Source of the DNA: Amylostereum areolatum
Lineage: Eukaryota; Basidiomycota; Agaricomycetes; Russulales; Stereaceae
DNA length: 64,000 nt
Direction of reading: 5' to 3'
Assembly (NCBI GenBank): GCA_012932865.1
Contig: SAXG01000023.1
Location: 186,001 to 250,000, forward strand
Positions 30,898 to 56,118 of the stretch are shown here, in pieces (the stretch's first letter is position 1; the number at the start of each line of letters is the position of its first letter). Both the position numbers and the translations under genes were made by a program. The notes under the pieces are model-generated. The model saw nothing but the letters and a program-made list of their open reading frames with translations. It had not been told where the DNA came from and did no database searches.

Positions 30898-30974
30898 CAG
30901 TGCTTTGCATAAGATTCCGGAATCCGCGCGCGCGATTTCGTTGTTTGTACGACCAAACAACCTGCCAAATGCGG
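30898..30974 (+). repeat. left terminal inverted repeat of the Tc1/mariner element
   Basis: Seventy-seven bases match the reverse complement of 56033-56109 with one difference at position 32 of the repeat (C against G). The preceding TA is the target duplication. Confidence 0.92.
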
Positions 30975-31042
30975 TAACCCGGGAAAATCCGAGCTCTGAG
31001 AGTGACAGCACGCGTGACATCATCTCCGTGTTCCGAACATCC

Positions 31043-31831
31043 ATGGCCCCCCGTCTATCCACACAACTCCGGGAGCGCATCGTCGCATGGAGGGAGCACT
31101 TCACCGTTGCCGAGATTGCCAACCTGGCAGCTTGTTCCATCACCACTGTCTATGACATTCTTGCACTTTATCACCAGACTGGATCAGTACATCCTCTACA
31201 GCCCTCCATGGCCCACGGTCGTCCCCGCACTCTCGATCAAGATGATCTGGGTTTCATCCACGACTTGCGCACTGCAAATCCTGGAATATATCTGGACGAG
31301 ATTCAGACTCACCTTTGGGATGACCGGGGAGTTGACATCTCACTCGCGACACTCTCCCGATCACTCCGCCGCCTTGCAGTCACACGCAAGACGATCGCAA
31401 AAGAGGCATTGGAGCGCAATGACGAGTTACGTGCGGTATGGGTAGCGGAGTATGGAAAAATCCCCATGGAGTGTATGATGTGGTTGGACGAGTCGGCAGT
31501 GGATGATCGGACAAACTTCCGCACATCAGGTTGGGCGGAACTTGGACAAGCATGTGTACGTCGTCAAACATGGATACGTGGCAAGCGGTACTCTGTGCTC
31601 CCTGCATTGTCCCACGAGGGGATTGTTGCACTGGAGATATTTGAAGGGTCAGTTACAAAGGAGAGGTTTCTTCGTTTTCTATGGGAAGATCTTGTGTGTC
31701 ATGCTACCATTACTCTTGTATCATATACTAATATCTACTAACTTCCTAAGGTCCCGCTCCTCAATCCATACACACCTGATGATCCCCAGCCATGCAGTGT
31801 CGTTGTATTGGACAATGCTTCTATTCATCAC
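31043..31831 (+). pseudogene. IS630/Tc1-type DDE transposase, 5' part (split by insertion)
   Basis: This part covers the DNA-binding half and the first two catalytic Asp residues of a Tc1/mariner-like transposase. The chosen ATG at 31043 (MAPRLSTQLRERIVAWRE) lies inside the element; the open frame to its left runs through the terminal repeat and cannot be its start. A helix-turn-helix region (FTVAEIANLAACSITTVYDI) and a GRPRTLD hook lead to the catalytic core with MMWLDESAVDD (first Asp) and VVVLDNASIHH (second Asp). A 58-base intron (about 31694-31751, ending CCTAAG) interrupts it. The frame is then broken by a Plavaka element inserted after the codon pair for His-His; the rest of the gene is at 38943-39235. 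No other disabling mutation was seen. Confidence 0.85.
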
Positions 31832-32340
31832 ATCAGGAAAACTCCCAGTACTTGACACCTACTTGGGGTCCTTGGGCAAGCTACTCAAGTCCTCAAGTCT
31901 CCAGCTACATGTGTCTTGGTCAAGCCGGGCCACTTACTGACCCCAGTCACTACTGTCCTGGGCAAGCTCCCCAAGTACCCACTAAGCATCTATCACAGTA
32001 CATTCAAAGAGCATCATAACTACCCAAGGTTGTTGTAAAGGCTGTCCCAAGTTTGAGTCCCAGCATATCCAAGCTAAACTGAAGGCCTCTGTAAACTAAT
32101 GACAGTTCTGGTCAAGTGTGTCTAAGTTACTCTCCCAGCATACACAACCTATAACTCAGTTCCCCAAGGCTACTCAAATTCATATCAAAAGGACACTTCA
32201 AGCTTATTTTTCAGCCGGAATTTTAACAATGAAAATAGATTTCAATTGGGTTTATAGTATTTTATGGAAATGGGTCACCTGACACTCTAATACTGCAACC
32301 ACCGCAGCGGTGAACCCACCGAGGTCTAAACAAAGAAGCT
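31832..32340 (+). repeat. left end and subterminal repeats of Plavaka 1
   Basis: After the terminal repeat, many short copies of CTCAAGT, CCCAAGT and GGCAAG occur within about 250 bases. Similar arrays at CACTA-type termini are known to bind the transposase. The rest is non-coding down to the accessory gene stop at 32344. Confidence 0.65.
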
Positions 32341-32343
32341 CAA

Positions 32344-34976
32344 TCAAAACCAGTGATACTACTACAGGCACAAACGACGTACCACGCATCATCCTCCTCG
32401 AGTTCATCTACATCATCTGATTCGGGAATCGGAGGATCCGATGACATCATAAAGTCATCATCATCATCTGATTCCTCGACGACCTCATCTTCGCGTTCGA
32501 CGGGCTGGTCTAGCCACTTGTAAGCACCATCAAGGATCTTGGACCACGCATCGCCAGAGAGATCGTCAACCGCGGCGAAGAACTTGCTGGCCTTGCGGTT
32601 CAGCTTGACTTGACCCTCGTTGATTCGTACGGTCTGATCACCCCAGTTCTCGGCCGAGAAGAAACCTTGTGGTCCACGCGGGATGATTGGGGTGCCCGTC
32701 CGCGAGAACTTCAGTGCCCGCTCGACCTGTTGTGGTTGATGTCAGTCGGGAACAGGCAAGCGTGTTAAAGAAGCAGATCCGGGGAAGCACGCACTGCGAG
32801 GAGACTCAATATTAGTGCTCCAGAAGGGTGCTCACCAGATCGAGGTGGCACGACCGCGAGGTGCGTGGATAAGGTCTTGAGCACTAGGTGGAATTGAAAA
32901 CGGCCCTAGAAAAGGTCAATATAGTGTCCGGTACGCGCTCCCGGAACAACTTACCTCCTTGCCTACACCACCATTCCATCGAGCCCAATACATGGGTGCA
33001 TTTTTGCCGTCTTCGCTGTGGACGGCCCATTCGACGTACTCAGTTGGGCTCGCAAAGCACCAGAGCCCTTCGACCTCGTCGGGGTCATCAGCCTCCTCGA
33101 CTTCAAGATATGCCTTGATGTTGTTGACCGCCTCGGAGCCGATCATGGACTTCCATTCATTGAGGCGTTGCATTGTCTGGGAGACATACTGTGAGTAGCA
33201 TTCACCGAAGTGAAACTGCACTTACAAGATCAAACACCACCTTGCCCTTCTCAACGACGACATCAAGGTCGGGGTACATTTTGTCGAAAAGGGTCTGGAT
33301 GGCATCCGCAGATGGCGTGGTGAATGGCGGTAGTGTCCCCGCGAGTTCCTGCACCTTGGACATGAACGGACCATTGAAAGTCGGGCGGACGGCCTCGTCC
33401 AGATGCTCTGTGGTCCACCTCGGCTTGCGTCCGCTCCGTCTTTGTGTTCCTGGTGCTGACTTCGCGTTGCGCGATTTCGGACCCAACGTTGCAATCACCG
33501 GGCGAGAGACTTGCGTGAGGGGGTTAGTATCCTTGTTGTCGTCAGTATGTTCTCACGGCGGAAGAACGACGAATGACGAACATACCTGGCGAATTGCTGT
33601 TGTCGGGATGCGAGTGCGAGTGTTCGTTACAACCGGACGGGCAAGTCTTGCAGGTACGGTTGACTTGCTCGTCACCGCGGTGCCCCCCTACGCAAAGCTG
33701 AAGACGGACAAGTTATAGGCAACGTACATGACTCACCATAGTTTCGCCCATGCCTTCCACCTCGTTCGTATTCCGACTGTTGTGAGCACCGAGGTTGGGG
33801 CATGATGAGCCTCTGGCAAGCTTCGTGTGACCTCGCGGGCGTGGAGTTGGTGTGTTGATATGGACAGAATCTCGAGTCGAGTTGTTGTCGAACTCGCCGG
33901 CGTCGGGGCCTTCATCGAAAGGGTCAGGCGGAGGGGTTGACGAAGGAGGCCGCGCTGCCTGCGCAGCATGCTTTCCGGAGGGAGTCCAATGTGAGTTGAG
34001 GCCGCCGATTGGGCGCAGCCGCTTCGAAGGCGGTCTACGTGGATGGTGCCGGTGAGGAGGAAGACACATAAGGGAAGAGAAGCCCAGCAAACGTACGCAT
34101 TGGACTTCGTAGACTTGGTCGGACGCGTGTGCGGCGTATCCGGTTCAGACCACTTTTGGAGGACGGATTTGGAAGGTGTTGATCCGGTGGCACGGCGTCG
34201 AGCATTTGGAGTTGGACCTTTCTTTGATGCAACCTCAACCTCATCTTCGTCGCCGTCCACATCCATGAACGAAGCGGGGCTATGACCGCTCGAAAATCTC
34301 GACTTGGATCTGGTGTCAGCAGTGTTGTCCTCGTCCCCGTCACCTGAAGCCTCGTCTTCTCCGTCCTTGGAACAATCCGACTCGTTCTTATCCTGAACCA
34401 TCTTAGCACTGTTGTCCTCAATCCCGCTGTCATCTCCGCCGGTGAACACCTCGTCTGTATACCGGAGCTTCTTCCCTGTTGAACTGTTGTAAGTACCTCC
34501 ATAAACTCAGCCACAGTGAAGGAGCTTACTCGGAGTCTCGGCTGTAGTAGAAGGCATCGTGACGAGTCGTTTTTTCGTGACAGGTGGCGGCGAGCTCGAC
34601 ACTTCCGGCGACTCGGCCGCTTGCTGGGTTCGTTTCCCTCCTAATCGAAGGTAAGTGTCGGTACAGACCTAACAGCAGCGAGGAACTTACTCGAGGTCTT
34701 CGTTGTAGAAGACGTCACCCATTTTTTGGTGACAGGTGGTGAGCTCGACGCCTCTGCCAAAAGGCCTTTTTCAATCTCGTCAAGACGCTTTACCTTAGCC
34801 CGCTTGGTGGCGGCAGCTGCCTGCAAGGCCTGCGACTTCGCGTTCTTCTCGGCTTGGACTTCGGTGGCCGTTTTGCGGGGTTTCGCAAGGTCTGTGAGGC
34901 CAGGATGCGCGTCCTTGTTTCCTCGACGAGTCGCAAGGGGGGGGCCGACGGGGACGCGTTTGCGGGACTGTGACAT
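32344..34976 (-). CDS. Plavaka accessory protein, multi-exon, unknown function
   Basis: It is transcribed divergently from the transposase, with 276 bases between the two ATGs. The ATG at 34976 opens MSQSRKRVPVGPPLATRRGN, followed by an Ala/Lys-rich coiled stretch (NAKSQALQAAAATKRAKVKR). Middle exons encode a disordered acidic and Ser/Thr-rich part (FMDVDGDEDEVEVASKKG). A conserved-looking C-terminal half follows: KPRWTTEHLDEAVRPTFNGP, LFDKMYPDLDVVVEKGKVVF, YWARWNGGVGKE, IPRGPQGFFSAENWGDQTVR. The C-terminus is a very acidic tail (EESDDDDDFMMSSDPP). I do not recognise a catalytic motif. Its place inside the element and the divergent layout suggest a DNA-binding or regulatory partner of the transposase, but that is inference. 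Exon borders are approximate. Confidence 0.6.
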
Positions 34977-35252
34977 AGCAGCAGGACAGTGCGAGGGAAA
35001 GGGGACGTTTCGGGAGGAAGGTCAAAGTATTGTGGTTCCTTTCATGTCCCGCTTATTAGATGTACTGAAGTTCGTCACAGGTTTTCGGCTCTGAGTCTGA
35101 ATCCTCTGCGGTCCGTAAACGCATGACTCGTTCTGTCGGATGGCTCGCCTTCAGTTCGCGTCGTCTTCCAACTCGCGTCATCGGATTCAACTTGTTCAAG
35201 AGCTCCTTGCTGCCCTCCACCGTCGCGCCGCTTTTTTGGCTCATCCTCTGAC
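34977..35252. promoter_or_regulatory. bidirectional promoter region of Plavaka 1
   Basis: These 276 bases separate the divergent start codons of the accessory gene and the transposase and must contain both promoters. No clear TATA box was identified. Confidence 0.5.
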
Positions 35253-38200
35253 ATGCCCCTTGCAAAGATTCAGTGGTCGGCGAAGCTTCGAACTCTCCCC
35301 TGCAAAGCCCCGGGATGTCGCCAATGGTTCAAGAATGTCTCCGGCCAAACGCAACACTTCAATGCACGTCATGCCATCAATTTACTGCCAGCCCCAGCAC
35401 CTCGTATCGTCCGACACCGGATACCGACGCCCATACCTGCCAATGAGGACGGTGATTTCGACCCTGCCATGCCGGGCCTTGAAGATGACGACGGCGATTA
35501 TGACGACTACAACTACAACGACTACAACTACGACGACCACGACAACAACGCGGGCGGTGTGTACATGGGAGCACGAGCGGAAACGCACCCCCATCTTGAT
35601 GGTACGCTCAAGCTCTGCTTTCGTAGCCTTTGCTCACATTATATCCAGGACGACCTTGCAACTCGCACGGGGCTCATCTTCCGGCGGGATCACCGCCTCC
35701 GGCCCCTTCACACCCTCCTGCAGACGACTACTCGCCTTTCAATAACCGTGAAGAATTCGAGATTGGCGACTTTCTGTACCGACAGGACGAGATGAGCGGG
35801 GCAAACGTCAACAAATTGATGGCCCTCTGGGCTTCGACACTTCACGAAGGCGAGGATCCACCATTTGCCAGCAACAAGGATATGCAAGAAACCATTGATG
35901 CCAGCAAGCTCGGTGACGTCGCGTGGCAGTCGTTCAAAGTGACCTACAACGGCCCCCTTCCTGCCGGCGAAGTACCACCGTGGATGCTCGCATCGTATGA
36001 GGTTTGGTTCCGGTGCCCGCTGGAGGTACTACGCATTCAATTATCGAACCCAGATTTCGCGTCGGAAATGGACTTCTGTGCGAAGAGGGTTTACGACGCA
36101 AAGAACAAACGTCACTACCGTGACTTCATGTCCGGTGACTGGGGCTGGAAACAATCAGTGCGTTCATTTTGTATCACTCATATTGACCGGAAGCTGATCC
36201 TCAACGCTATAGGATATATTGGCTGAAGATCCTCGCAACCACGGGGCAACGTTCTGTCCCGTCATCTCGGGGAGTGACAAGACGACGGTGTCCGTTGCCA
36301 CAGGGCAGCATGACTATTACCCGTTCTATCTTTCTAACGGCCTTATCACCAACGGAGCACGGCGCGCCCATCGCGAAGGTATCTCACTGGTTGCATTTCT
36401 GTCCATACCTAAAAGTACGTATACTTATTGTCCTGTACCCAAGACTGTGAGCTAACGAGCAATGGAAATCAGCGGACGAGCAATTTCACAATGACAGCCG
36501 CTTTCGCATGTTCCGTCGGCAACTATTCCACTCATCCCTTCACATGATCCTCCAGCCCTTACGTTCTGGGATGACGGATCCCGTGGTGATGCTGTGTGCC
36601 GATGGTCACTACCGCCGAATAATATTTGGTCTTGGCCCATATATTGCTGACTACCCGGAGCAAGTGATGTTGGCTTGCATAGTCCAAAATTGGTGTCCGA
36701 AGTGAGTTCCTTCTCGTGTTCAGGTCATAAGTATAAGATATAACCTTCTGTCTTTATCAGATGTACAGCACGGCCTTCGCTCTTGGACGGACCGGGAATG
36801 CGTCGTTGCGCAGAACACACCGACGCCGTCGTCAACGCGTTGGGTATCAAAGCTGCCTGGGAGAACTATGGCATCGTTGGTGAGGTCAAGGTATCCTTCT
36901 CTTCTACTTATTACCGCGGTAGTATGCAGGTACTGACAAGTGTCATAGCCCTTTACAGACGACTTTCCGCGTGCAGACATCCACGAGCTACTATCCCCCG
37001 ACCTCCTACATCAGATCATCAAAGGGACCTTCAAAGACCACCTCGTCGGGTGGGTTAATCAATACCTCGTTGAAGAACACGGCCAGTCCCGTGCGTCGGC
37101 AATTGTCGCAGACATTGACCGTCGGTGAGTTCCTATATCTGACTCGTAGGAAACCATACTGACTTTCTTTGGATCTAAAGGATTGCGGCAGCACCGAGCT
37201 TTCCTGGGCTTAGGCGTTTCCCTGAGGGGCGCGGGTTCAAACAATGGACCGGCGACGACTCGAAGGCCCTCATGAAGGTAAGAGTATTTGCTAATGACCC
37301 TGTATTTGTCCTGACGATTTCCCCTGTATCAGGTTTACCTGCCCGCTATCGCAGGACATGTACCTGGGCAAATGGTTCGCGCGCTCAGCGCCTTTTTAGA
37401 ATTTTGCTATCTTGTACGAAGGTCCACCATCGACGAGGATACCCTGGACGCTATTGACGGCGCCCTTGCGCGCTTTCACCTTGAACGCGAAATCTTCCGT
37501 GATGTCGGTGTGCGACCGGACAGATTCTCACTTCCGCGCCAGCACTCCATGGTCCACTACGTTCCTCATATTAGATTGTTTGGGGCGCCAAATGGGCTCT
37601 GTTCGTCCATAACCGAATCAAAGCATATCAAGGCAGTCAAAGATCCGTATCGGCGGACTAATCGCAATGAGCCTCTCGGCCAGATGCTGCTAATCAACCA
37701 GAGACTCGACAAGCTGGCCGCAGTCTGTGTTGACTTCACGGCTCGTGAGATGCTCAATGGGCCATGCCTCGGTCTTCCGCCCATCGTCCTCGCCACTGTG
37801 CATCGTGATGCCTTGGCCCCTGCCCCTGCCCCCATTCCTATCGCTGATCCTATCGTCCTTGACGAAGAAGGAAATGTCGACGACGATGGAGGGGATGTCG
37901 ACGGGCCTGTTGTGATGGGAGAAGTGCAACTTGCGAAGTGTCGAGGTATGTCAACCGGGTCCATAGTATTCTCTCTGAGCTAATCTGATCTTTGGTACAG
38001 TACGTCATCTTCCCCGGCCTGTAGACATGCTCGCCGCTACCATCAACATTCCTCGTCTTCAAGAACTGATCCGTCGTTTCCTATATGATCGACAGTTCCC
38101 TGACTCGGAGATCTCTCCCGTTGATGCCGCACTTGCCAGCTGTCCCCATTTTGACGGGCATGTAACTGTTTTTCCTTCCGCCGTCGCCATATTCTACGCC

Positions 38201-38665
38201 CCAAGTGACCTTTCCGGAATTGGTGGCATGCACTGCGAGCGGATCCGATCTACCGCGTCATGGCGTCACGGTCCTGCACGACGGGACTGCGTATTCCTTG
38301 AAAAGGATCCAGATGTGGTGGGGTTTAGAGGCCTGTACGCTGCCCGTGTTTTGCTTTTTTTCCAGTTCACATCAGATGGTGTCGATTACCCGTGCGCGCT
38401 CGTATCGTGGTTCTCTCCTATCTCGGAGACACCATGTCCCGATACAGGCATGTGGATTGTCGAACCTGACCTTGACAGGGATGGTGATCGTGAACTGTCG
38501 GTCATCCACATTGATTGCATTCTTCGTGGTGCACATCTGATTGGGGTGTCTGCCGGTGCCGAGTTCCTTCCACGGTCTCTATCACATACAGATAGTCTGG
38601 ATGCGTTCCATGCTTTCTATGTAAATAAATATGCAGATCATCACTCTCATGAGATTGCATTTTAG
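35253..38665 (+). CDS. Plavaka transposase 1
   Basis: This is a DDE-type transposase of the Plavaka family, known from Agaricomycetes. The ATG at 35253 leads into a C2H2 zinc finger (CKAPGCRQWFKNVSGQTQHF, ending NARH). A repetitive acidic stretch (DYDDYNYNDYNYDDHDNN) encoded by GAC/TAC/AAC codons follows. The catalytic domain shows FCPVISGSDKTTVSVATGQH, MLCADGHYRRIIFGLGPYIA, DYPEQ, NWCPKC, and ELLSPDLLHQIIKGTFKDHL. Next come WTGDDSKALMKVYLPAIAGH, SLPRQHSMVHY and the family hallmark SSITESKHIKAVKDPYRR. The C-terminal domain ends in YVNKYADHHSHEIAF. At least seven introns with good borders are visible, at about 36160, 36415, 36702, 36893, 37124, 37277 and 37947. No disabling mutation was seen, so the copy may be active. 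Confidence 0.85.
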
Positions 38666-38939
38666 AACCTTAATATATGTGTGCTTATCATCACTGTCCC
38701 AAGTCTGAGTTTGTCTGTCCAAGGAGCCTAAGTGCTTTCTGGATTAACAAGTATTTCTCATCTATGCCAAAGTAACCCAGCTAATATATCTGTCCCCAAG
38801 TGAACTTCTAAGGACCATGTGTTTGATCAAGCCCACCAGCAACTTTGTTCCAGTCCAAGTTCTGTCCAAGGTCGATCTCCAAGTTCAAGTTGTTTTGTCA
38901 AGTTCAAGTACAGCTCAAGTACTGGGAGTTTTCCTGATG
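38666..38939 (+). repeat. right end and subterminal repeats of Plavaka 1
   Basis: It contains repeated CCCAAGT, TCCAAG, TCAAGT and CTCAAGT motifs leading into the terminal repeat (reverse complement of the left end). The arrangement mirrors the left end. Confidence 0.65.
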
Positions 38940-38942
38940 CAC

Positions 38943-39235
38943 GATGCAGAGATCCGTGCAATTATTGAAGGTGTTTGTGGTACGTCTTACAGTTATCTGA
39001 TCATGTACCATTTGTTCATGAGGCTTGAATAGGCGCCAAACTGATATATCTCCCCCCATATTCTCCCGATATGAATCCTATTGAGCAAGCGTTCAGTGCT
39101 ATCAAAGCCTGGCTTCGTCGACATGAAGCCGAAGCAGTCAATCCACAGACTCGGCCAGCACTTATGCGTCGGGCAGTTGATGCCGTTCAAGCGGAGAGTG
39201 CGATTGGTTGGATTATGAACTGTGGTTATGTGTAG
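38943..39235 (+). pseudogene. IS630/Tc1-type transposase, 3' part
   Basis: This completes the transposase started at 31043. The first codons (DAEIRAIIEGVC) join directly to the His-His codons before the Plavaka insertion. A short intron (about 38980-39031, donor GTACGT, acceptor AATAG) is followed by AKLIYLPPYSPDMNPIEQAF, which contains the conserved Y-S-P-x-x-N-P-I-E motif with the third catalytic residue (Glu). The stop at 39233-39235 is 26 bases from the stop of the convergent passenger gene. Confidence 0.88.
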
Positions 39236-39261
39236 AGTAATTACAGCCCTCATTCTCTATA

Positions 39262-40358
39262 TCAAGAAAAAACATCCTCATCCCGTGTAAGAGTGCGAGC
39301 AAATGCCCGTTTCACCTCCAGACGCGCCACCCACTGGCCAGCAAAATGTTGAAACTGGTGCACCGTCTCCATGCTAATGTTAAACATATCCATCATCAGG
39401 TCGACGTCAAGTAAAGAGAGGCTCTCAGGAGAGTAGCCTGCCTCGCCAAGCACCTGCCCATATTGCAACAAGTCAAGACCCTCCTCCTGAAGCAGCATCA
39501 TCAGAAAGTAAGACATCACCTCACGCTGTGGTGGGATAGGGGAAATAGGGAGGTGTATGGAGCGAGGGCGCAAAGGCGTGGAAGGAGATGGAGTGTGCGG
39601 CGAAGGGGATAGATAATCATGGGACACAAATGATGATGACATTGGTCGGGACATCTGTGCGGATGCAGATGCAGCATGTGGGAGAGACGGAGAGTCCATC
39701 ATCCTTGCGAGGAGAGTACCCTGCTGCTTGACGATCTCAGCCATCGTCATCGCGAGAGGTATCGGCACATTGTTACGTGGCTCAACCTGAGGAGTAGGAG
39801 TTGCCGGCGCAGAGACTGGACCCCTTCAACCATGAGGACGAGGACCGATACTGCCGTCTCGAGGTCCGTCAAAGGATGGCCAGGTGGGAGGAGTCTGAAA
39901 GGTAGCATCACGGCTCTCCTAAAAATATAATGAGTTGAGCATCGGAGGTGGAATTTCGAAAGCACATACAATTGCAGCAGCCCAGTCGCAAAAGCGAGCT
40001 TTGTTGAGAGCAACATGACCTCCCTTTCCGTCGGGCCAGCAGTAGCCCTGATTGCCATGCTCACCCAAATGTTTATCGCACGGGTAAAGTTTCTGAAGCT
40101 GGAGGATGTGCTGGCCATTGATCTGAGCCTGCGCAGAGAAATCACCAACTTTTGGAACCTAAAACAAACATTAGGTTTGGGTCACCAGATCACGATTGCG
40201 CAAATATACCTTAGTTCCTGCTGCTGGTGCGTGAGGGGCAGGCTGATTGCCAATGTTCATGATCACATCAGCAGGCTGTAGAATTGATGTATTAAACATA
40301 AGGAACATATAATAGCGTACAAGGAAGCGTACCCGAATCCGAGACCGAAAGGGCTCCA
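39262..40358 (-). pseudogene. passenger gene of the Tc1/mariner element, 3' part
   Basis: This continues the gene that starts at 55905 and is cut by the gypsy insertion at the CTCCA site. Exons include PFRSRIR, ADVIMNIGNQPAPHAPAAGT, and a conserved-looking core: VPKVGDFSAQAQINGQHILQ, then CDKHLGEHGNQGYCWPDGKG and GHVALNKARFCDWAAAI. The last part is Ser/Pro-rich and then helical (LLQEEGLDLLQYGQVLGEAG, MDMFNISMETVHQFQHFAGQ). Proteins with a similar 'C-x2-HLGEHG-x2-G-x-C ... H-x2-L' core are, from memory, widespread unknowns in mushroom-forming fungi. A TGA at 39828-39826 lies in frame, but it may fall inside an intron ending CTCCTCAG at about 39788, with a weak GTCCTC donor. Function unknown; DNA-binding or element regulation is only a guess. 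Confidence 0.65.
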
Positions 40359-45502: not shown

Positions 45503-46749
45503 TCCTTCTTCTCCTCCACCTTCGGCTGAGCTTGAAGCGCGTCCATCACGCTTTTCCGATCTTCGGCCGACAGGCTCCTAGCCCAGGCGGTGGGCGTCTC
45601 GAACGTCTGTGCTCGAGCCTCCCGCTTTGGTGGTTCCGTGTACCGGTCCCTCCCCCACATGTCTCGGATGTTCTTCACGTCCACCCTGCAGTCCCGCACC
45701 TGGTGGCCATTCTGTCCGCAGCGGAAGCATCGCCCCTTGATGTCGACACAGTTGACGTCCATCGGCTGACCTTTGCCACCGTGCACCGTGCCGGTTCCAT
45801 CGCGGCGCCATGGGACCTGCCCCCCTTGTTGCCCATTGGACGATCCTTGTCCTTTGGGTTTTTGGTTCTGCACGGGTCCACTGCGCTGGGTCTTAAGGTC
45901 CTCCCGCTCCTGTCGCAGACCATCGATCAGGATGATGCGCTCTTTGAGGTCCTCATATTTCTGAGGAACGTGACCGCTGTCGTAGATGGAGTCGATGGTC
46001 CGATAGTAGACGTTGTGTTTGAGCAGCTGCATGAGGTGGATAGGGTCCTGCGCCGTGGAGTATCCTGCCTTTCTTGCGAGTTGCTCGAATTTGGCGAAGT
46101 ATTCATGGGCAGTGGTACCCTTCGTCTGTTTGAACCCGTCCAGTTCGACTGCGGCACGGTGCTGCTCATTGACGTCGGTGAAGGCCCCTTTGAGTGCTTT
46201 GTGGAAGTCCACCCAGGCGACCATGGCTCCATTGGCCAAGTGTGCATCCTCATACTCGGCCTTCCAGGTGCGTGCTGCCTCCCCCGTCATGTAGGTGAGA
46301 ATGAAGAGGACTTTGTCCTTGTCCGTCACGAGGTCATCCTCAGCAGCTCGCATGTATTCCTCGCACGACCGCATCCAGTCATTGAAGTCCTCTCGTTTCC
46401 CAGAGAAGCCTTCAGGAGTTTTCGCGTGGACTTTCTTTCGGGGGGGTCTGGCGGCTGCGGCGGCTGGGGCACTAACAGTGACCGCAGGGGGGTTGACGGT
46501 GATGGGGGGGGCCGTGACGTTGACGGTGGGGGGTGGCAGGTTGAGGGCAGCAACAAGCACGGCAGGGATGGCGACCCATTGGCCATTTACTTCCATGAGC
46601 CAGGCATCGTCGGTGCCGTTATTCATGTGTTGGATGGGAGAGCCAGTTTGGCCGATGACGATGTTCCACGTTCCACCGATTTCGGTGCAGTTGGCGAGTT
46701 CGGCGGGGAGAGGGGGTTGGGGGTCGGTGCGGATCCACTGGGCAGCCAT
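45493..46749 (-). CDS. gag protein of gypsy A
   Basis: This is the capsid/nucleocapsid precursor that packages element RNA. The first in-frame ATG is at 46749 (MAAQWIRTDPQPPLPAEL). The capsid region carries GFSGKREDFNDWMRSCEEYM and FHKALKGAFTDVNEQHRAAV. The nucleocapsid has one CCHC knuckle (CFRCGQNGHQVRDC). It ends KKEGF at 45493. The frame stays open for a further 102 codons upstream of the ATG, back to a TAA at 47058-47056, and that upstream stretch reads as natural protein (FFVQLGDTTVEVAFVATQTS). Translation may therefore start further upstream or by stop-codon readthrough. Confidence 0.85.
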   Translation of the reverse strand: MAAQWIRTDPQPPLPAELANCTEIGGTWNIVIGQTGSPIQHMNNGTDDAWLMEVNGQWVAIPAVLVAALNLPPPTVNVTAPPITVNPPAVTVSAPAAAAARPPRKKVHAKTPEGFSGKREDFNDWMRSCEEYMRAAEDDLVTDKDKVLFILTYMTGEAARTWKAEYEDAHLANGAMVAWVDFHKALKGAFTDVNEQHRAAVELDGFKQTKGTTAHEYFAKFEQLARKAGYSTAQDPIHLMQLLKHNVYYRTIDSIYDSGHVPQKYEDLKERIILIDGLRQEREDLKTQRSGPVQNQKPKGQGSSNGQQGGQVPWRRDGTGTVHGGKGQPMDVNCVDIKGRCFRCGQNGHQVRDCRVDVKNIRDMWGRDRYTEPPKREARAQTFETPTAWARSLSAEDRKSVMDALQAQPKVEEKKEGF

Positions 46750-47055
46750 GATTGGTTCGTCGAGGTTGGAGAAGTCTTCGTCGGTGACAGGCGGTAGGGC
46801 GGAGGCGGCGATGAGGTTGAAGTCGGCTTCAGTGAGGTCGTCTTGGCTTTCGTTGGCGAAGTACCAACTGATGCCACTTGTTTGGGTTGCTACGAAGGCG
46901 ACTTCGACAGTGGTGTCTCCGAGTTGGACAAAGAAGTCGTTTCCTCGTTCAGTGAAGCCTAGAGGGAGGGGATATATGTAGCAGTTTTCGTCCTCAACGT
47001 CGGTGTCGGAGTCAGAACTGGAGTCGGAGCCGTTGAGTCCGAACGAGGGAATTGT

Positions 47056-47457
47056 TTATAAGTGGGTGAGGTCGATGACCTCTGGCTGGGTGAGGTCGAT
47101 GACCTCTGGCTCTGGTGTGGGGCTGGGGGTGTTGCCTGGTGTAAGGAGGCGGTGGGTGTGTCGAGTGTCTACTGGTATTTTCTCGTTGGGCGCGTAGAAG
47201 GATTTTGGGGGTTGCTCGAGTTTGTAGCGGTAGGTGACGTATAGGCAGGAGTAGACGTAGAGGTTTCCGTTTCCTTGTTCGCTTATTTTGAGGCGATAGA
47301 AGTGGATGTCTATGATGGAGTCTTCAAGTTCTTCTACACCGAGGGCGACCTTCCAATTGTGCCAGGCCCAAGGGTCTTTAGATTCGTTGATGAGGGAGAT
47401 GATAGCGTCGTGGCTGATGGGGATGAATTCTTGTACTTGCGAGCGCCAATCTTCCAT
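47056..47457 (-). CDS. pre-gag open reading frame of gypsy A with tandem VIDLT motifs
   Basis: A 133-codon frame starts at ATG 47457 (MEDWRSQVQEFIPISHDAII) and ends at TAA 47058-47056, in the same frame as gag. It contains NESKDPWAWHNWKVALGVEE and a hydrophobic YVYSCLYVTYRYKLE segment. It ends in a 27-base tandem duplication encoding PEVIDLTQPEVIDLTHL. V-I-D-L-T is the classic core of SUMO-interacting motifs. The stop codon is the only thing separating it from the open frame that leads into gag. Its family is not recognised. Confidence 0.55.
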   Translation of the reverse strand: MEDWRSQVQEFIPISHDAIISLINESKDPWAWHNWKVALGVEELEDSIIDIHFYRLKISEQGNGNLYVYSCLYVTYRYKLEQPPKSFYAPNEKIPVDTRHTHRLLTPGNTPSPTPEPEVIDLTQPEVIDLTHL

Positions 47458-47928
47458 GCACGAGCCCCCAGTCGAAATGGTTACTCTGTGCGGCAAGGGA
47501 AGATTTTGTCGAGGGAAGGTGGTTCTGTTATGAGATCGCAAGACGGTCTGCCTCAGTCTTCTCGACCTGTTGGCTGTCTCTTCGTCTAGGGGACACGAGC
47601 CCAAAGACTTCCTAAACCGCTTTCCTTTCGCCGCTTTTACTCGTTTCCTACACCAAAGGTGCACCTTCTACTGTCACCTCTGAGCTTTCAACTCCTGGTA
47701 TTGGAGAGTCTCGAGTAGGTGTAACGTTTCGAGGAAACGTCAAGCCGGCACCGGTATACGTGCGCACGACCACAATGTCAGGGTAACGAGTCGCGTACTC
47801 TGGGGGCAACGGTCTAGGGCGGCACGGGGGAAGAACAAGGTCAGTACCAGACGGGTACTACTACTACTATGCTACAGTACGTAGGGACGGTCGTAGGGTG
47901 GTGCAAGAGTAAACAGATCTCGAGCTTA
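47458..47928 (-). other. 5' leader of gypsy A
   Basis: This lies between the 5' LTR (ending at 47929 on the coding strand) and the pre-gag ATG. A longer open frame without ATG extends back to about 47664. I could not identify a convincing tRNA primer-binding site next to the LTR. Confidence 0.5.
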
Positions 47929-48385
47929 TGTCAGCAACGACTAGTGCGACAGCACCAAGTTACGACAAAGCTGACAGAGGAAGAGGACGACAGAGGGGAG
48001 CCGATCAGACACGGCGACAGACAAGGGAAAGCAAGCAAAGTCGGTAGAATTGACTAGCTCGAGATAAGGAATATGTACAGCGAGAGCGAGCCTTATATAC
48101 ACAAGAGGAGAGAGACTTAGGTAAGCAACCAATACACGGCGATCAGTAAGCAGACCAAGTATAAGTAAGCAGTCGTATGTAAAAGAGCACAGCATGAGTC
48201 AGTATCGTACAGCATGAGTCAAGAGAAAGGAGTCAGACCCGGACCGAGATGAGTCACGTGGGTCCGGGCGGGATATAGATGAGCCGGGTCCGGGCCAAGG
48301 TGGAGCCGGACCGGTGATAAGTCGATAAGTCCTAAAGCGTGTAACCGATGTAAAGTAAAAAGAAAATTATAGACCGTTCATGACA
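47929..48385 (-). repeat. 5' LTR of gypsy element A
   Basis: This is 457 bases, apparently identical to 40872-41328, flanked on the right by GGAAC. In the minus-strand orientation it is the promoter-bearing LTR. Confidence 0.95.
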
Positions 48386-51300
48386 GGAACGCACAGGGCG
48401 GGGCGCATTTGGATGGCGTTTGTGGAAGGCGTCGATCATGTCGGTGACCTTTGAGAGCGAGGAGCGAGGGAGCCAGGTATTCTCGGAGTCAGGATAGCCT
48501 GCCCACTTGACGAGGTATTGTATGCCTTTCTTGTTGCGGGTCGGCTTCGAGTCGATGATGTCTTCAACGTCATATTCTTCTTCGTCGCCAACGAGGTCAG
48601 GTGGTGGTTGTTCATAGTTTGGACCATGTGCCGTTGTCTCCTTGTACGTGGTGAGCAGCGAAGCATGGAAGACTGGGTGAATTCTCCACGTCTTCGGCAG
48701 CTTCAGGCGGTAGTTCACTGGGCTAATGACGTCAACGATCTCGAAGGGTCCAAATCGTTTGGCAACAAGCTTAGCTTTCGGCCTCGTCGTCTTCAGGTTT
48801 TTGCCTTCGAGCCAGACCTTGTCTCCAATGGCGAACAGTGTCGATTTGCTGATCGTGTCACCATTGTAGTGCTTCATTAAGTCCGATGCGAGGGCAAGGC
48901 TGGCTTTGATCTCTTGTCGGACTTCTTCAAGTTGACGGAGGCGTTCTTCAACTGCAGGGACCTTTGAGGATGGGTTTACGGATGGGTACATCTTGGGGAG
49001 GAAGCCGTAGAGGACTTCAAAGGGAGCCTTTCCAGTAGCTGCATGGGTGCGAGAGTTGTGAGAAAACTCGAAGAAGGGCAACCACTTCACCCAGTCATCT
49101 TGATGGTAGTTGCAGAATACTCGCAGAAACTGCTCGAGGTTCTGGTTCTCGCGTTCGGTTTGACCGTCTGTCTGTGGGTGATACGCTGTGCTGAGGGCGG
49201 ACTTGATCCCGAGCTTCTCGTTGAGTGTACGCATCACCTGTCCAGCAAATTGGGGTCCACGATCCGAGATGATCTTGTCTGCTAAGCCGTAGTGTCGGTA
49301 TACCTTATCGAAGAGAATGTCGGCCGTGCCATCGCTGGTGATCTTCGTTGTACATGGGGTGGTAACCACCATCTTGGTGAGGCGATCGACCACGACATTG
49401 ACGGCGTTATAGCCTTCGCAGTCAGGGAGTTCGACGATGAAGTCGGTGGAGATGACGCCAAATGGTCGATCGGGTACTTCGTTTGGGATCATGTCGACGT
49501 GGGGTCGGCTGCTCTGTGTCTTCGTCGACTGGCAGGTTGCGCATCCTGCTACAAAGTCGCGGACAAAGACAGACATGCCAGGCCACCAATATTCACGACT
49601 CACAAGCTCGTAAGTCTTGAAGCGACCGGGGTGTCCAGCCAGGGGCGATTCATGGTACATTTTGACAATGTCGCGTCGCAACTCGTCATCTGCAGGGACA
49701 TATACCTTTCCTCTAAACAGGACCAGGCCTTCTTCGTAGTTCCACTCTTGAAGGTTCTTGACGAGTGTACGTGGTCCGTTTCGCAAGATGGCGTCCAGGG
49801 CTTGAACGACCTCGATGTCCTTGGTTTTGCAGTCGCGGATACGTCGTTGGAGTTCGACATCACCGAGGGAGGTTACTGCTCCTGGCCTTGTTGCGCGTAC
49901 TTGGAAGTACTTGGGGTCAAGCAAGACGCGCTCCTTGTTGTCGTTTTCAACACCATCCTTGTGATCGGGTCGTCGAGACATTGGATCCGGGCGGTGGGAA
50001 ATTCCTGGTTTATGAACGAGCGAGAAGTCAAATCGAGTGAGGAATAGAGCCCAACGTGCCTGTCGGCGGCTCAGCTTCTGTGCCGTCTTGAAGTGCTCCA
50101 GGTTCTTGTGATCTGTCCAGATTTCGACGGTGTCGGGGGCGCCTTCGAGGTAGTGGCGCCAGGCTTCAAGCGCACGGATGATCGCAAGCAGCTCCTTGTC
50201 GTAGATGTCGTAGTTCCGTTCTGGTTCCGATAGGGCCTTGGACAGATACGCCACTGGATGCCAGTGACCGTCGTCGCCTTTCTGCGAGAGTATACCTCCA
50301 GTAGCAAAGTCCGAGGCATCGACTTCGACGAGGTAAGGCTTCTTTGGGTCGGGCATGACCAAGACGGGGGAGGAAGTAAATGCAGCTTTCAGTGCGTCAA
50401 ACGCAGTTTGGCAGTCCGTCGACCAGTCCCATGTGCAGTCCTTCTTTGTCAGATCAAATAGGGGCCGTGCCACCTTGGAGAAGTCCTTGATGAAACGTCG
50501 GTAGAAGTTGCCAAAGCCGAGGAAGGATTGCACATCTTTGACCGTTCGTGGTGTCGGCCAGTCCTGAATACCTGCTACCTTGACGGGGTCCATAGCGATC
50601 TTGTCGTGCGAGATGATGAGTCCGAGGTATTCGACAGAGTCTTGTTCAAAGACGCATTTCTCCGGTTTGAGGAAGAGGTCGTTGTCTTGCAAACGCTGCA
50701 GAACCTGCCGCACTATGGCACGGTGTTCATCCATGGTGCGAGTGAACACCAAGATGTCGTCCATGTAGATGATGACCTTGCCCGAGTCGATGAGATCCTT
50801 GAACAGTTCATTCATCATTGCCTGAAATGTCGCAGGGGAGTTCATAAGCCCAAAAAACATCACCGTAGGTTCGAAGAGACCGCGATTCGTCTTGAACGCA
50901 GCCTTCCACTCGTCGCCTTCCTTGATGCGGACATTGTTGTAGCCCCAGCGAACATCCATCTTGGAGAAGATCTTTGCACCTTTGAGACGGTCGACAATTT
51001 CAGAGATCAGTGGCAAGGGATATTCATTCTTGACAGTGCCCTTGTTTAATTCTCGATAGTCCTGTACAGGACGCAGCTTTCCATCCTTTTTCTTCACAAA
51101 GAAGAACGGACTCGCCTGAGGTGACTTCGATGGGCGGATATAGCCCTTCTTCAGGTGGTCGTCGAGGAAGGTGTCGAGTTCGATCTGCTCGGAAGGTGAG
51201 AGGGGGTAGATCTTGCACGGTTTGGGTTCAAAGCCGTCTTTCATGTCGATAGCATGGTCCCATGGCCGTCGGTCAGGAAGTCGCTCGGAGGTTTTCTTGT

Positions 51301-52321
51301 CGAATACAGGCGCAAAGTCGCGGTACGGCAGGGGGACTAAGTCTTCAAAGGTTTGCGGGCGTGCGTTCTCTTTTGAATGTTCTGCAAGCTCCTGCGCTTT
51401 TGTAAAGCCCGCGCGGATGGGTATTGCATCTGGATTAGGACCATCGGTTTCAGGGAGGATTCCGGCGCGGCGTAGTCCATTGATCTCCCAGTCTCGGAAT
51501 ACCATGGGCCGCTCGTCGTCGTCTTCAGTGAAGAGTCGTGCGGGTAGAGGGGAGCGATGGACCATGCGGACGCGAACACCTTTGACTCTGCGTGCAGGAA
51601 TAACATAAGTGGGGACTGGGGTCCAGGACACATATGTCGGCTCTGGGAAGGGATCGTCCACGACGAGGGGTGTCCTCGGGGTTTTACCTGCTTCAACCTT
51701 ACGCTGTGATTGGACCGATGATGGTTTCCGTGGCTTGGTTGCGAGGTTCGTCACAGGAGGTTTGGACAGAGTGCACGAGGGAGGGCAGCGGAGCATGTCA
51801 ACACGGTCTCGTTGCCAGTCTATGGTGGGATTGTGCTCGTCGAGCCAGTCTGTTCCAAGGATCATGTCATGATCGCCGATGTCGGTGATGAAGAACTCAG
51901 CTTCTTCCTCATGGTACGCCTTTGAATCTTGCGAGTATATCCGGATCCGCTGGGTCGTTGTGTCGCGTACCCAGCCCATGACATTCTCGGTGCCATCCAC
52001 ATTACGCACGGGGAACGGGTTTTCTAGTTTTCTTGTGGTGAGCTTCTTGCGTTCAACGAAGCTTCGGTTCAGGATAATTCCTTCTGCGCCGCTATCAAGC
52101 AGCGCGTCTGCGTCGATTTCTCTTTTGGTAACTCGTCCGATCAGCTTGACTTTGAGCGTGATCGATGGTGTTTGCCTGTTCTTGGTGACAGTAGACAGAT
52201 ACAAACACGGGGGATACGATTGCTCACAGGTATGCATGGATGATAATACAGCGAAACGATTCGACGATGATACCAAAAGTCCTTTGCCTCCACCAGACGA
52301 CGCGACTGGGGGGCGTTTCAA
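48386..52321 (-). pseudogene. pol polyprotein of gypsy B, main part (truncated by gypsy A)
   Basis: The chromodomain Ty3/gypsy pol is open throughout. Protease DALLDSGAEGIIL; reverse transcriptase FSKMDVRWGYNNVRIKEGDE and VIIYMDDILVFTRT; RNase H DKELLAIIRALEAW; integrase zinc finger (AGHPGRFKTYELVSREYWWP ... CATCQSTK) and core (TAYHPQTDGQTEREN); chromodomain (YDVEDIIDSKPTRNKKGIQY, LVKWAGYPDSENTWLP). The frame runs through VRS into the LTR of gypsy A; its last codons are at 40871-40711. Apart from that insertion I see no disabling change. It is related to gypsy A pol but clearly a different lineage. Confidence 0.9.
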
Positions 52322-52327
52322 AAATCC
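52318..52327 (-). promoter_or_regulatory. probable -1 frameshift site, gag-pol of gypsy B
   Basis: The coding strand reads GGATTTTTGA. Gag stops at the TGA while pol continues in the -1 frame, exactly as in gypsy A. Confidence 0.55.
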
Positions 52328-53343
52328 TGCGATTCCAGGATGTCCTTCAACAGCGCTACTGCCTGCTCCTTGCCTTCCGCGTCCAGATCCTTCAGCTGGC
52401 GAGTGATCGCCGCGATGGTTTTGGATGGGTCGGGAGCTGCTTTCGCAGTGGACGGAGCCGTGTTCGTTGGCAGGGGAGGGGCCTTGGACCCAGTCTCTAC
52501 TGCGCCCACCCGTCGCGCGCTCGAGTCGCGGTTGGGGCAGTCGCGAGAGACGTGACCGGCTTGTCGACACATGAAGCACTTGCCTTCGCGCATCATCTTT
52601 GCGCGCTCGTCGTCCGTCAGCTTTGCAGGGCGGGTCGAGGTGTTGGTGAAGGCACCGACTCGGCGCGACGAGGAGTCGTTGGTTGAACCGTTCGAGGTGA
52701 GCGCGACAGCCCCCTTGGACTGACTGCTCTTCCTCTCCGGGTTCTCTTCGAGCCACTGGTGGTTGATGCGGCGGGCGCGCTCCTTCCACTCCGCGAGCTT
52801 GGTGGGGAACGGGTACGACCGGGCCACCTGCTTGCCGAGGTCACGCTGAAGTCCCTTCTTGAAAAAGTGGATTAGCGCCTCGTCGTCGTACGCTGACATG
52901 GTTGCCAGCATCTCAAACTCGGTGATAAAGTCAGTGACGTCCCGGGTGGTCATCGCGAGCTCGTTGATCTTACGCTGAGCCTCTATCTTCGGGTCGACGG
53001 GCACGAAGTCTTTGCCAAACCTCTCGAAGAGCTCTTTGTAGGAGCTATAGTGGAGTGTTGGGGGCGTGGGGTCGAGGGCGTCGGCGTCTTCCTTCTCGTC
53101 TTCGTCGGCGAAGAGTTCCATGCGGCGATGCGTGGCCCAGGCTTTCGCTGTGTCGTCCTCCATCAGGCTGAGGAGAAGCATCATCTTGGCGTCATCTGTG
53201 GCATAAACATCCTTGTTAACGCGCAGGAACATGCGGAGCTCGAGGGAGAACCGGAGGGTGTCGCGTCTATCGCCTTTGAATGGCTTTGGCTTGGGGCCGA
53301 TCTCCCGCTTGGAGACGGCAGGTTTGGATTCGGCGTCGGACAT
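52318..53343 (-). CDS. gag protein of gypsy B
   Basis: This is a gag precursor with first in-frame ATG at 53343 (MSDAESKPAVSKREIG). The capsid region includes RFSLELRMFLRVNKDVYATD and RINHQWLEENPERKSSQSKG. The CCHC knuckle is CFMCRQAGHVSRDC. It ends ILESQDF at 52318. The frame remains open without any ATG for another 197 codons upstream (WYFDDRDEQPYVEESDFATA and others) to a TAG at 53937-53935. The real product may therefore start upstream. Confidence 0.85.
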   Translation of the reverse strand: MSDAESKPAVSKREIGPKPKPFKGDRRDTLRFSLELRMFLRVNKDVYATDDAKMMLLLSLMEDDTAKAWATHRRMELFADEDEKEDADALDPTPPTLHYSSYKELFERFGKDFVPVDPKIEAQRKINELAMTTRDVTDFITEFEMLATMSAYDDEALIHFFKKGLQRDLGKQVARSYPFPTKLAEWKERARRINHQWLEENPERKSSQSKGAVALTSNGSTNDSSSRRVGAFTNTSTRPAKLTDDERAKMMREGKCFMCRQAGHVSRDCPNRDSSARRVGAVETGSKAPPLPTNTAPSTAKAAPDPSKTIAAITRQLKDLDAEGKEQAVALLKDILESQDF

Positions 53344-53934
53344 CTTGTCGAAGGGGAGGGGGACGGTGAGGGATTGGGCGAGTTCTTGATCAAGGCGGCG
53401 TAGGGTTTCTCGTCGGTGTTCTTCTGCTTCTTCAACTTCGTCCTCAACTTGTTTTGCGACAAGGAAGTCGGCGGGGGTGAGGAATTGCTGGTTATGATGC
53501 CACGACCAGTGATCTTGGACGGGACTGAACGAAGTGGGCTGCCACTCAACTACTGATCGTCCTGGGGTTCCGTTCTTGTTCCGTCTATAGGCGTACCACT
53601 TCCCAGTTGTGTCGTTGTGGTTGATCCCTTCTGGGACTTCGATTACAGTACGTCGACGGGGTGGGGGCGAGTTGGTCGGAGGGGGGTTCAGGAAGCGCTG
53701 TAGAACGTCCGCAGCGGTGGCAAAATCCGATTCTTCGACGTAGGGTTGTTCGTCGCGGTCGTCGAAGTACCAGTCTCGACGTTGCCGGTTTGGTTCGTCG
53801 TGCAGCCAACGTACGGATTCCTTAGTCTGCTGCGAGGTGAGGATATAGTACTCTTCAGGACAGTAGTCTCGAAAGACGCCTGGGGGAAGGTTCAGGGTGG
53901 GGGGACGAGGGGCTGTGGAGGACGTGATGATGGT

Positions 53935-54551
53935 CTAGAAGAAGTCCGCCGCGATGGGGCGACGGCCGAGGAGTTTCTGGGTGAGGTAGCCGGCTTTTAC
54001 TGCCTGGCGGATCTTATGTTCGTGGTGGCGGCGACGAAGGGTCTTACCCTTGATGGTGGGACGGAGGACTGGTGGCGGGGTGGATTCGGGGGTCCGACGG
54101 TTAAACTGGGAGACAGAGGTGAAACTGGTTTGGATGATCGGGTTGGGGGCGTCTTGGATGAGGTATGTGTGGTAGGTGGGGGCGTGGAGGGTGAATTCAA
54201 GGCGTTCGAGATCTACGTTGATGCACGTAGTGATCCGGACGTATAGGGCGAGGACGACAGTACCGTGATCCTTGTGCCACCTCCACTCGAAGATGCGGAA
54301 GTTGAGGCCGTGCGCGGTCCAGGGATCTTTCTTGCAGAGGTTCTGTACGGGGACGAGGCAGTTGACGGTGACGGCGTCGGACCAAGGGTAGGGGAGTGGT
54401 GCGTCGTCGCGGGGGGTGATCGGCTTTCCGTTGAACGGGAGGAAGACCGGTGCGTTCGGGAGGTCCGTGGTGGGAGTTTTTAACGTCGTAGAGACGGCAG
54501 AGGTAGATGGAGAGAGGGGTGCGAGGTAGGCGTAGGGGTAGACTGTCCAGG
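53935..54551 (-). other. ATG-less pre-gag open frame of gypsy B
   Basis: From the inner LTR edge (54551) to a TAG at 53937-53935 the gag frame is completely open for about 205 codons and contains no Met codon. It reads as natural protein (LPYPWSDAVTVNCLVPVQNL, CKKDPWTAHGLNFRIFEWRW, LERLEFTLHAPTYHTYLIQD). The KDPW...H stretch resembles one in the pre-gag frame of gypsy A. Start site and mode of expression are unknown. Confidence 0.5.
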
Positions 54552-54971
54552 TGTCAGAAAAACAGTTTATGAGACCGATGAACCGCCTAAGTCGCGATGA
54601 TGGGAGGAGCGAGAAGAAAATAGATTTGAGAGTGCCAGGGTCTAGGGTAGTGCAACGTGCGCTACAGTACCGTATGACGAGATGGACAGTCTAGGGAAAA
54701 GGGAAGAGAAACACTGTCCTTATATACAAGTGGGAACGATGGTGCGATGCGATGTGATAGTGGTGCGAGTGGGGGGAACAATAGGAAAGGAGTCATGGGG
54801 CGGAGGACGAAGGTCCGGAGCAGTGATGTCATAGATAAGGATGCGGAACCCCGCTCGGAAGTCCGGGCAATGATGTCATTGAAGCATGTGATGCGAGGGA
54901 AAGTCATGTGCCGTGACACGTCGCGTGTACGAGGTCTGCAAACGAAGAGAGAAATGGAGCGATCCGTGACA
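54552..54971 (-). repeat. 5' LTR of gypsy element B
   Basis: This is 420 bases, differing from 40359-40778 at about six positions. It is followed by the duplicated target CTCCA (54972-54976). Confidence 0.92.
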
Positions 54972-54976
54972 CTCCA

Positions 54977-55905
54977 TATGTGACATGTCGAACTCAGTGT
55001 ACACCGTTGCGTTGGGCTTCTTGCTGATCGCACTGACAACACCTGCCCAGTCGGCATTGTTGTCAACTGTTGATGCTGCAGACTTCCTACTCGTATAATA
55101 TATCAGACAATGAATGTACAAGGAACAAGAGACGTACGCAATACCGGTCCAGTGCACTACAAATGGCGGCCCGTTCTCCCCCACGATGAACTGACCATCT
55201 AAGCCATGCGCAATCAACATCTTCTCAACGATCTCCACACATGTCGTTGTAGCCCCAAGCGGGGTGGTGATAGTCTTCGAGGATTTAGTTGTTCTTGTTT
55301 GTCCTGGGGCTGTGAACACAATCGTGATGACGACGGTGCGACCTTATATCATCATTAGTTCTTAGCGTAGGCACAAAGATAACCTGAGAGATACCTTCGC
55401 GTTCATTACGACATGGTGCCGCCACCACTGCCGCCGCCTGACGAGGTGCCGCTGCTGGACTGCCGCGGCTTGGTGCGCCTGCTGGCGTGCGTGGGGCATT
55501 CTGGGTCTGGGGTTGAGGAGCCGGGGGAGCAGGACCATGTTCTTGACGTGGGGGAGTGTGTGCAGCAACAGCTTGCGCGCGCTGTGCATGCTCGAGAGCC
55601 TGCTCGCGGGCTTCTTGTTCTTGTGCGGAGATGCGGGCCAGCAGGTATGTGCGGTGGTCTGGAGGGAGCTGATTGATAGCGGCTGCACGAACCTCTTCTA
55701 TTTTTTCATGGCTGTGGTAGAAGGTCGGAGGATCCACTGCGCCGTCTGAGTGGTAGTTAGCAATATGCATTTTTCGGGGCCAACCCCAAGCCTGTCACTC
55801 ACCAACCCATGCTGGCTCTGTAACCCAGACCTGTGAGACCTGATACCTCCTTCGTACTCCATTGGCAGTCTGTAGCTCGACGACGAGGGGAAAGACGGGG
55901 TCCAT
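54977..55905 (-). pseudogene. passenger gene of the Tc1/mariner element, 5' part
   Basis: The ATG at 55905 opens MDPVFPLVVELQTANGVRRR, then YQVSQVWVTEPAWVG. After a clean GTGAGT intron comes DGAVDPPTFYHSHEKIEEVR, then RTYLLARISAQEQEAREQAL. An Ala/Pro/Gln-rich linker follows. The next exons read VVITIVFTAPGQTRTTKSSK, LGATTTCVEIVEKMLIAHGL, and VGENGPPFVVHWTGI. The last is NADWAGVVSAISKKPNATVY ending DMSHME, where gypsy B entered; the next codons (PFRSRIR) are at 40358. The gene lies wholly inside the Tc1 terminal repeats and faces the transposase. Its function is unknown. Confidence 0.65.
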
Positions 55906-56032
55906 GACTCGGATGTAGGTGAGAGCGGACAAGGAAGTGCCAGCTCGACGACCCGACGCGTCGCGCTGCCGTTATGTCACTCAGTCACACCGGGATCACA
56001 CATCAGTCACTGTACCTCATTGCTGCGCATTC

Positions 56033-56109
56033 CCGCATTTGGCAGGTTGTTTGGTCGTACAAACAACGAAATCGCGCCCGCGGATTCCGGAATCTTATGC
56101 AAAGCACTG
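56033..56109 (-). repeat. right terminal inverted repeat of the Tc1/mariner element
   Basis: This is the reverse complement of 30898-30974 with one mismatch, followed by the TA target duplication. Confidence 0.92.
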
Positions 56110-56118
56110 TATCATCTG

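Follow-up and report, generated by a model that had tools for sequence, protein, structure and literature searches.

Transposons of the Tc1/mariner superfamily usually measure <2.5 kb and contain the transposase as their sole gene, which is customary but does not define the superfamily; layouts in which a transposase and an accessory gene lie together within the terminal inverted repeats (TIRs) are familiar from MuDR, with its convergent mudrA and mudrB genes, and from PIF/Harbinger. Here we analyse an element found in Amylostereum areolatum (Russulales) within a window of 64,000 nucleotides (positions 186,001 to 250,000 of contig SAXG01000023.1, that is C99:186001-250000, in the 57.1-Mb, 182-contig assembly GCA_012932865.1). 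Between its TIRs the element carries an IS630/Tc1-type transposase and a convergent gene of seven exons, hereafter the passenger, and this pair recurs in several families throughout the genome. With the IS630/Tc1-mariner elements Tc1, Fot1/pogo and impala it shares a DDE_3 transposase, TIRs and the TA duplication; unlike the usual form, it reaches 3,487 bp in the family of the window element (fam1) and 4,025 bp in a second family (fam2), and retains a second, convergent multi-exon gene across families. The two-gene layout resembles that of MuDR and PIF/Harbinger, whereas the transposase superfamilies and the accessory proteins differ.

Extra open reading frames (ORFs) in Tc1/mariner elements are documented in ciliates. 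TBE and Tec elements possess three ORFs, among them, in TBE, a small ORF and one for a zinc finger protein and, in Tec, one for a site-specific recombinase, and the TBE TIRs span ~80 bp (PMC7325037); the TBE genes are reported to be under purifying selection (PMC4724952). An earlier note on this DNA had stated that the superfamily normally carries a transposase only, which stands as a usual trait but overlooks the ciliate ORFs (PMC7325037). Compared with TBE/Tec, the element described here is alike in having extra coding capacity, but it is fungal, has two genes and encodes a passenger with no Pfam match above cut-off. In fungi, TET/JBP genes of DNA transposons are held to serve their transposon, with methylation-based silencing discussed in a paper whose main text does not contain the word 'mariner' (PMC12730594). 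The idea of an accessory gene serving its element is the same, but theirs is a dioxygenase and no such Pfam family was found in the passenger. Similar in length to fam2, at 3,972 bp against 4,025 bp, is MarorTcMar-18 of Marasmius oreades, a mariner-type element from which a shorter derivative has recently been moving; the likeness is one of description, and the part of the source at hand mentions no second gene (PMC9674265). In searches of open-access papers, a coverage that leaves out most subscription journals, no report of this passenger was found.

Uninterrupted copies of the window element

The window element extends from a TA at 30896-30897 to a TA at 56110-56111. A search of the assembly with its terminal repeat gave nine matches at five places, among them whole copies of 3,487 bp, TA to TA, on C132 (L009) and C107 (L010), each with TA duplications and unlike flanks. 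These copies agree with the uninterrupted size of ~3,480 bp predicted in the earlier note, and the window element itself comes to ~3.49 kb once its nested insertions are subtracted. We set the exon borders manually, from reading frames and GT/AG signals and not from transcripts, and under this splice model both genes are open in the C132 and C107 copies, with a transposase of 323 aa in 3 exons, a passenger of 568 aa in 7 exons and GT...AG introns of 51-57 bp. The spliced transposase matched Pfam DDE_3 (2.9e-29, 102.3 bits against a cut-off of 28.6) and NCBIfam transpos_IS630 (151.5 bits against a cut-off of 100). Its catalytic motifs read LDESAVDD, LDNASIHH and NPIEQ, with 35 residues from the last D to the E (DD35E), a spacing that depends on the splice model of intron 2; in Tc1/mariner transposases, 34-39 residues separate the last two members of the catalytic D, D, E. 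Since the IS630 cut-off is exceeded and the copies of fam1 and fam2 are bordered at either end by TA duplications within unlike flanks, the element is a member of the Tc1/mariner superfamily.

The two whole copies differ at only 11 positions, for which reason dN/dS (the ratio of non-synonymous to synonymous substitution) was not used within fam1. Every one of the 11 is a CpG transition, a pattern suggestive of cytosine methylation in the fam1 copies. A third copy, on C13, has an insertion bounded by long terminal repeats (LTRs; 482-bp direct repeats) in its passenger. The C8 locus (L012, C8:85000-94800) corresponds to no more than the left portion of the window element; because it shares the left flank and a nested Plavaka insertion with the window, at ~98.7% identity, it is a duplicate or alternative assembly (uncollapsed haplotype) of the window locus.

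Linkage of transposase and passenger in the genome

Linkage was counted in this genome only. The searches score best candidates only (for example, 77 of 182), so that locus counts are lower bounds; 52 transposase and 40 passenger loci were merged by hand from the search hits, the passenger loci being taken from last-exon hits. At least 52 transposase loci (27-100% identity) were obtained, 39 of which could be paired with a passenger by sequence search, leaving 13 unpaired. From the side of the passenger, 39 of the 40 loci found by sequence are convergent, with the transposase upstream on the opposite strand, and the lone unpaired one, at C138:166 kb, has decayed and is interrupted by other repeat sequence.

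The largest contribution comes from fam2, an element of 4,025 bp from TA to TA with a TIR related to that of fam1, its boundaries read from copies with different flanks. All 33 fam2 transposase loci have a facing passenger, even the two in which the transposase is damaged (C106:1837711 and C95:2688412). Ten fam2 copies are 99.94-100% identical to an eleventh across 3,515-3,519 bp, and it is because of these near-identical copies that the two-gene form appears to have moved recently. The fam2 passenger encodes 575 aa and has six introns; that of a third family (fam3, C100:532-536 kb) comprises 609 aa not counting its start. Intron phases 1,1,2,0,0,0 are common to the passengers of fam1, fam2 and fam3.

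The earlier note had recognised that copies with the same TIRs and only a transposase, or passengers located mainly outside transposons, would speak against its proposal. Neither was encountered in this genome: in none of the 33 fam2 loci, nor in any of the four fam1 copies that retain both ends, was a transposase lacking a passenger seen between these TIRs, and to the 39 of 40 passengers convergent with a transposase a further family, described below, adds six of six. With a Suillus passenger as query, no places beyond the known ones appeared among the matches listed (86 of 112 candidates scored).

At the level of the ends, the TIR pattern TACAGNNNTTTGCATAA gave 105 genome matches against none for a reversed-pattern control, an occurrence that exceeds chance, and for a 150-bp query from the fam2 left end, the 40 scored of 65 candidates were all fam2 ends, left or right. 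Two fam2 elements lie ~50 bp apart in opposite orientation at C99:485410-493510. Besides full elements, inverted fam2-type TIR pairs resembling miniature inverted-repeat transposable elements (MITEs) occur 247-260 bp apart, with no room for either gene, at C13:713699-713954, C49:17334-17580 and C95:2347759-2348018, and further MITE-like fam2-type pairs at C105:287370-287628, C119:246725-246983 and C139:537213-537463. Such TIR-end pairs, ~250 bp apart, suggest that the element proteins act in trans. Wider TIR pairs at C66:118809-121858 (3,050 bp) and C140:110081-112439 (2,359 bp) had neither passenger nor transposase among the matches listed there.

Transposases without a sequence-detected passenger

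The stretch beside six of the 13 unpaired transposases was read (C158, C105, C138:158 kb, C143, C164 and C117:32 kb). An ORF scan covered 356 ORFs of >=40 aa at seven diverged transposase loci, namely those six plus C100:378 kb (L077), already paired, using a profile of the Cys/His core of five passengers. The six top ORFs all lay on the opposite strand and downstream of the transposase. The two contributed by L077 are no test, as the profile includes P0002, a near twin of the L077 passenger. Without L077, the top four came one each from L079, L081, L080 and L082 (E 2e-4, 0.0021, 0.0032 and 0.011), ahead of the best reversed decoy at 0.64; as 84 of the remaining 283 ORFs have a convergent, downstream position, four of four so placed corresponds to p ~0.007. 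When a 14-row profile was run over 1,529 ORFs, including those of the window, L079, L081 and L080 again surpassed the decoys (0.003, 0.009 and 0.03; best decoy 1.4), whereas L082, at 1.7, did not. A weak core match in the window (ORF 62419-62628, E 0.41) was dismissed on reading.

For L082, a convergent C-terminal exon gave six genome matches; among these matches, each faces one of the six transposases belonging to its family (C164, C98, C102, C117:380 kb, C113 and C34) in convergent orientation, and none lies elsewhere. A gene is thus linked to the L082-family transposase, and its position, its appearance and a weak match to the profile mark it as a putative passenger. Counting nine loci with weaker profile matches of this kind brings the transposase loci with a passenger to 48 of 52; the remainder comprises the truncated C8 and C158, C117:32 kb, where 3.4 kb showed none, and the unread C32.

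Selection, conservation and predicted structure of the passenger

The codon test compared a single pair, in a DNA alignment of the exons of the fam2 passenger with the decayed relative at C138. Of the seven exons, five outscored all of 20 shuffles, and in the 307 codons of these five the mismatches at positions 1, 2 and 3 numbered 74, 51 and 198. A stricter score limit kept exons 2 and 3 (143 codons), with a dN/dS of 0.048 (bootstrap 0-0.17) at a dS saturated at 4.9; for the fam2 transposase against its C158 relative the ratio was 0.11 (0.02-0.18, 150 codons). The passenger thus shows strong purifying selection in the one pair tested, a test that the earlier note had proposed.

Conservation concentrates in the core, where Cys27, Cys40, His48 and Trp59 are invariant in eight aligned passenger rows, two of them identical. 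Passengers of distant subfamilies have little in common beyond this core pattern, and L079, outside the eight-row alignment, has no second Cys in the matched stretch. Sequence searches of the passenger against Pfam, NCBIfam and the PDB gave nothing above cut-off, and a fold search of the Cys/His core against PDB and BFVD gave no convincing match, the rows listed being unrelated chains with a Foldseek probability of <=0.18 (PDB) and <=0.41 (BFVD).

The alignment that was folded omits short exon-4 rows, which were misaligned, and the model is therefore poor in the central part of the passenger; at the C-terminus of P0001, a Coprinopsis homologue, four helices are predicted between 478 and 547, against five in a SAM fold, with pLDDT 97-98 for 481-540. 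The top Foldseek rows for this region are SAM domains, with a probability of up to 0.99 but an E of 0.06 and no Pfam SAM match, and NusA repeats tie with them. NusA also appeared weakly (E 0.41) in the sequence-profile search of the passenger, in the same domain as the best structure-based row, together with a weak L7/L12 match (E 1.4); the NusA match may reflect a common SAM/helix-hairpin-helix-like fold.

Relatives in other fungi

Three protein searches yielded 12 passenger homologues from nine species of the orders Agaricales, Boletales, Polyporales and Russulales; the database search with an alignment profile gave one protein, and the core region alone gave 11 including the query. P0001 is 31% identical to the fam1 passenger, while P0002, from Amylostereum chailletii, matches the passenger at C100:376 kb with 90-92% identity along most of the P0002 sequence. 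The ten others, from Coprinopsis, Rhizopogon, Hygrophoropsis, Suillus, Paxillus, Sparassis, Collybia and Dendrothele, have core regions that share 46-90% identity with P0001. All 12 are annotated as hypothetical or predicted proteins and none has a Pfam family above cut-off (P0001 being scanned without its linkers), so that the earlier note's mention of a large unknown protein family among mushroom-forming fungi was borne out in kind, by 12 unnamed proteins from four Agaricomycete orders. Among viral contigs, 45 pattern matches were obtained and none was confirmed.

Organization of the copy in the window

The arms of the window element (30895-30977 and 56030-56112) are 83 nt long and 98% complementary, with TA on both sides; the earlier note had named the TA duplications and had given the TIRs as 77 bp. 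Including the target TA, the left TIR occupies 30896-30977 on the forward strand, by comparison of arms and of copies, and the right TIR 56030-56111 on the reverse strand, by comparison of the arms. Three tandem 32-bp repeats stand immediately outside the right TIR, at 56118-56213.

The window exons were mapped from the uninterrupted C132 copy (L009), and this reproduced the extents given beforehand for the transposase (31043-39235) and the passenger (55905-39262), with 26 bp between their stop codons (last bases 39235 and 39262). On the forward strand, transposase exon 1 begins with the ATG at 31043 and runs to 31693 (L009 exon 1156-1806); exon 2 is interrupted, with its two parts at 31751-31831 and 38940-38979 according to the copy comparison, and exon 3 with the stop lies at 39033-39235 (L009 exon 2035-2237, shifted by the copy offset and checked in the window sequence). 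On the reverse strand, the passenger starts with the ATG at 55905 in exon 1 (55803-55905), followed by the Pro/Ala-rich exon 2 (55395-55745) and exon 3 (55138-55342). Exon 4 is again divided, by copy comparison, into 54972-55086 and 40333-40359, the latter past an LTR-retrotransposon insertion. Downstream of exon 5 (40210-40275), exon 6 (39970-40158) encodes the Cys/His core (CDKHLGEHGNQGYCW), identified also by alignment and profile, and exon 7 (39262-39918) a linker, a putative SAM-like C-terminal domain, assigned from the fold of P0001, and the stop.

Both genes are broken in the window by insertions foreign to the system. A Plavaka element (31832-38939; PF18759 Plavaka 4.2e-28), absent from the C132 and C107 copies, splits transposase exon 2 (31831/38940), and a chromodomain LTR retrotransposon with ~420-bp LTRs (40360-54971, reverse strand), absent from the whole copies, splits passenger exon 4 (40359/54971) and itself harbours a second LTR retrotransposon with identical 457-bp LTRs (40872-48385). 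The last exons of the window passenger also contain one in-frame stop (TGA) more than those of the other three fam1 copies. Within the Plavaka element, minus-strand ORFs at ~33733-34640, divergent from its transposase, may represent a second gene. Elsewhere in the window, a diverged direct-repeat array with a spacing of ~99 bp (15222-16307) possibly encodes a repeat protein, and a diverged inverted duplication occupies 24185-27537 (pieces of 68-466 bp, 77-85% identity).

Discussion

Our central claim is based on three results: the 39 sequence-detected pairs, the whole copies and the outcome of the codon test. Taken as a gene, the passenger is very probably a conserved component that serves the element. 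We lean, if by no wide measure, towards regarding the window element as a member of the IS630/Tc1-mariner lineage in which two convergent genes are the standard anatomy in this genome and the passenger aids transposition. As to the manner, direct help in transposition, rather than anti-silencing or regulation, appears to us an even call. The passenger would thus be an ancient accessory gene of the transposon, whose mechanism, an aid to transposition or to escape from silencing, we can only infer.

In the mechanism that we propose, the transposase would bind the TIRs and cut at the TA, while the passenger, expressed from the opposite end, might act in trans as an oligomerising partner, with Pro-rich linkers, through its SAM-like C-terminus. 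Its Cys/His core could contact DNA or a chromatin partner, and the protein may in this manner aid the assembly or the targeting of transposition complexes. A partner role of this type is attributed to mudrB of MuDR and to the Myb-like partner of Harbinger.

Among the alternatives, the most serious, though in our judgement an unlikely one, is that the passenger is an anti-silencing factor that binds element DNA or chromatin and blocks host methylation or repression, for which VANC of the Arabidopsis VANDAL elements provides a precedent. The fam1 copies look methylated, with 11 of 11 differences as CpG transitions, and the window copy has an extra stop; this CpG decay speaks for an anti-silencing role. 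Nevertheless, the young copies themselves lose CpGs, so any protection would be incomplete at best, and the scanned passengers have no Pfam family above cut-off. The notion also draws on the TET/JBP genes of fungal DNA transposons, held to serve the transposon (PMC12730594).

Improbable in our view is that the passenger regulates its own transposase, as a repressor or titrating partner, with convergent transcription adding antisense control. The fam1 stops lie just 26 bp apart and SAM domains often mediate oligomerisation, both of which would suit a regulator, but a pure repressor should drop readily from amplifying copies and yet the passenger is kept at all 33 fam2 loci. We attach very little probability to a host gene captured once and carried as passive cargo: six introns could recall such an origin, but the passenger shows purifying selection, its introns are conserved across families and, except for one decayed copy, no unlinked relative was seen in the genome among the matches listed. 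That two unrelated adjacent elements had been misread as one, as the heavy nesting of the window copy could insinuate, is refuted by the two whole fam1 copies elsewhere in the genome, each flanked by other sequence and bordered by TA duplications, and by the fam2 copies, the layout being repeated in other families, and keeps practically no probability.

The interest of the passenger lies in that Tc1/mariner is the textbook transposon needing only its own transposase, so that a second gene under selection throughout deeply diverged subfamilies raises the question of a cofactor, of protection from methylation or of copy control. Extending the argument beyond this genome, it is conceivable, although we advance it tentatively, that Agaricomycetes hold a distinct branch of Tc1/mariner with two components, where a second protein, composed of a new metal-binding fold and a SAM-like oligomerisation domain, is required for transposition or licenses it. 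The two genes would form an ancient co-diversified pair, with passengers barely recognisable between subfamilies, and would account for a sizeable class of mushroom hypothetical proteins. The passenger may accordingly help to identify proteins that annotation pipelines count as mushroom host genes, and the near-identical fam2 copies would constitute a natural, apparently recent system for two-component transposition.

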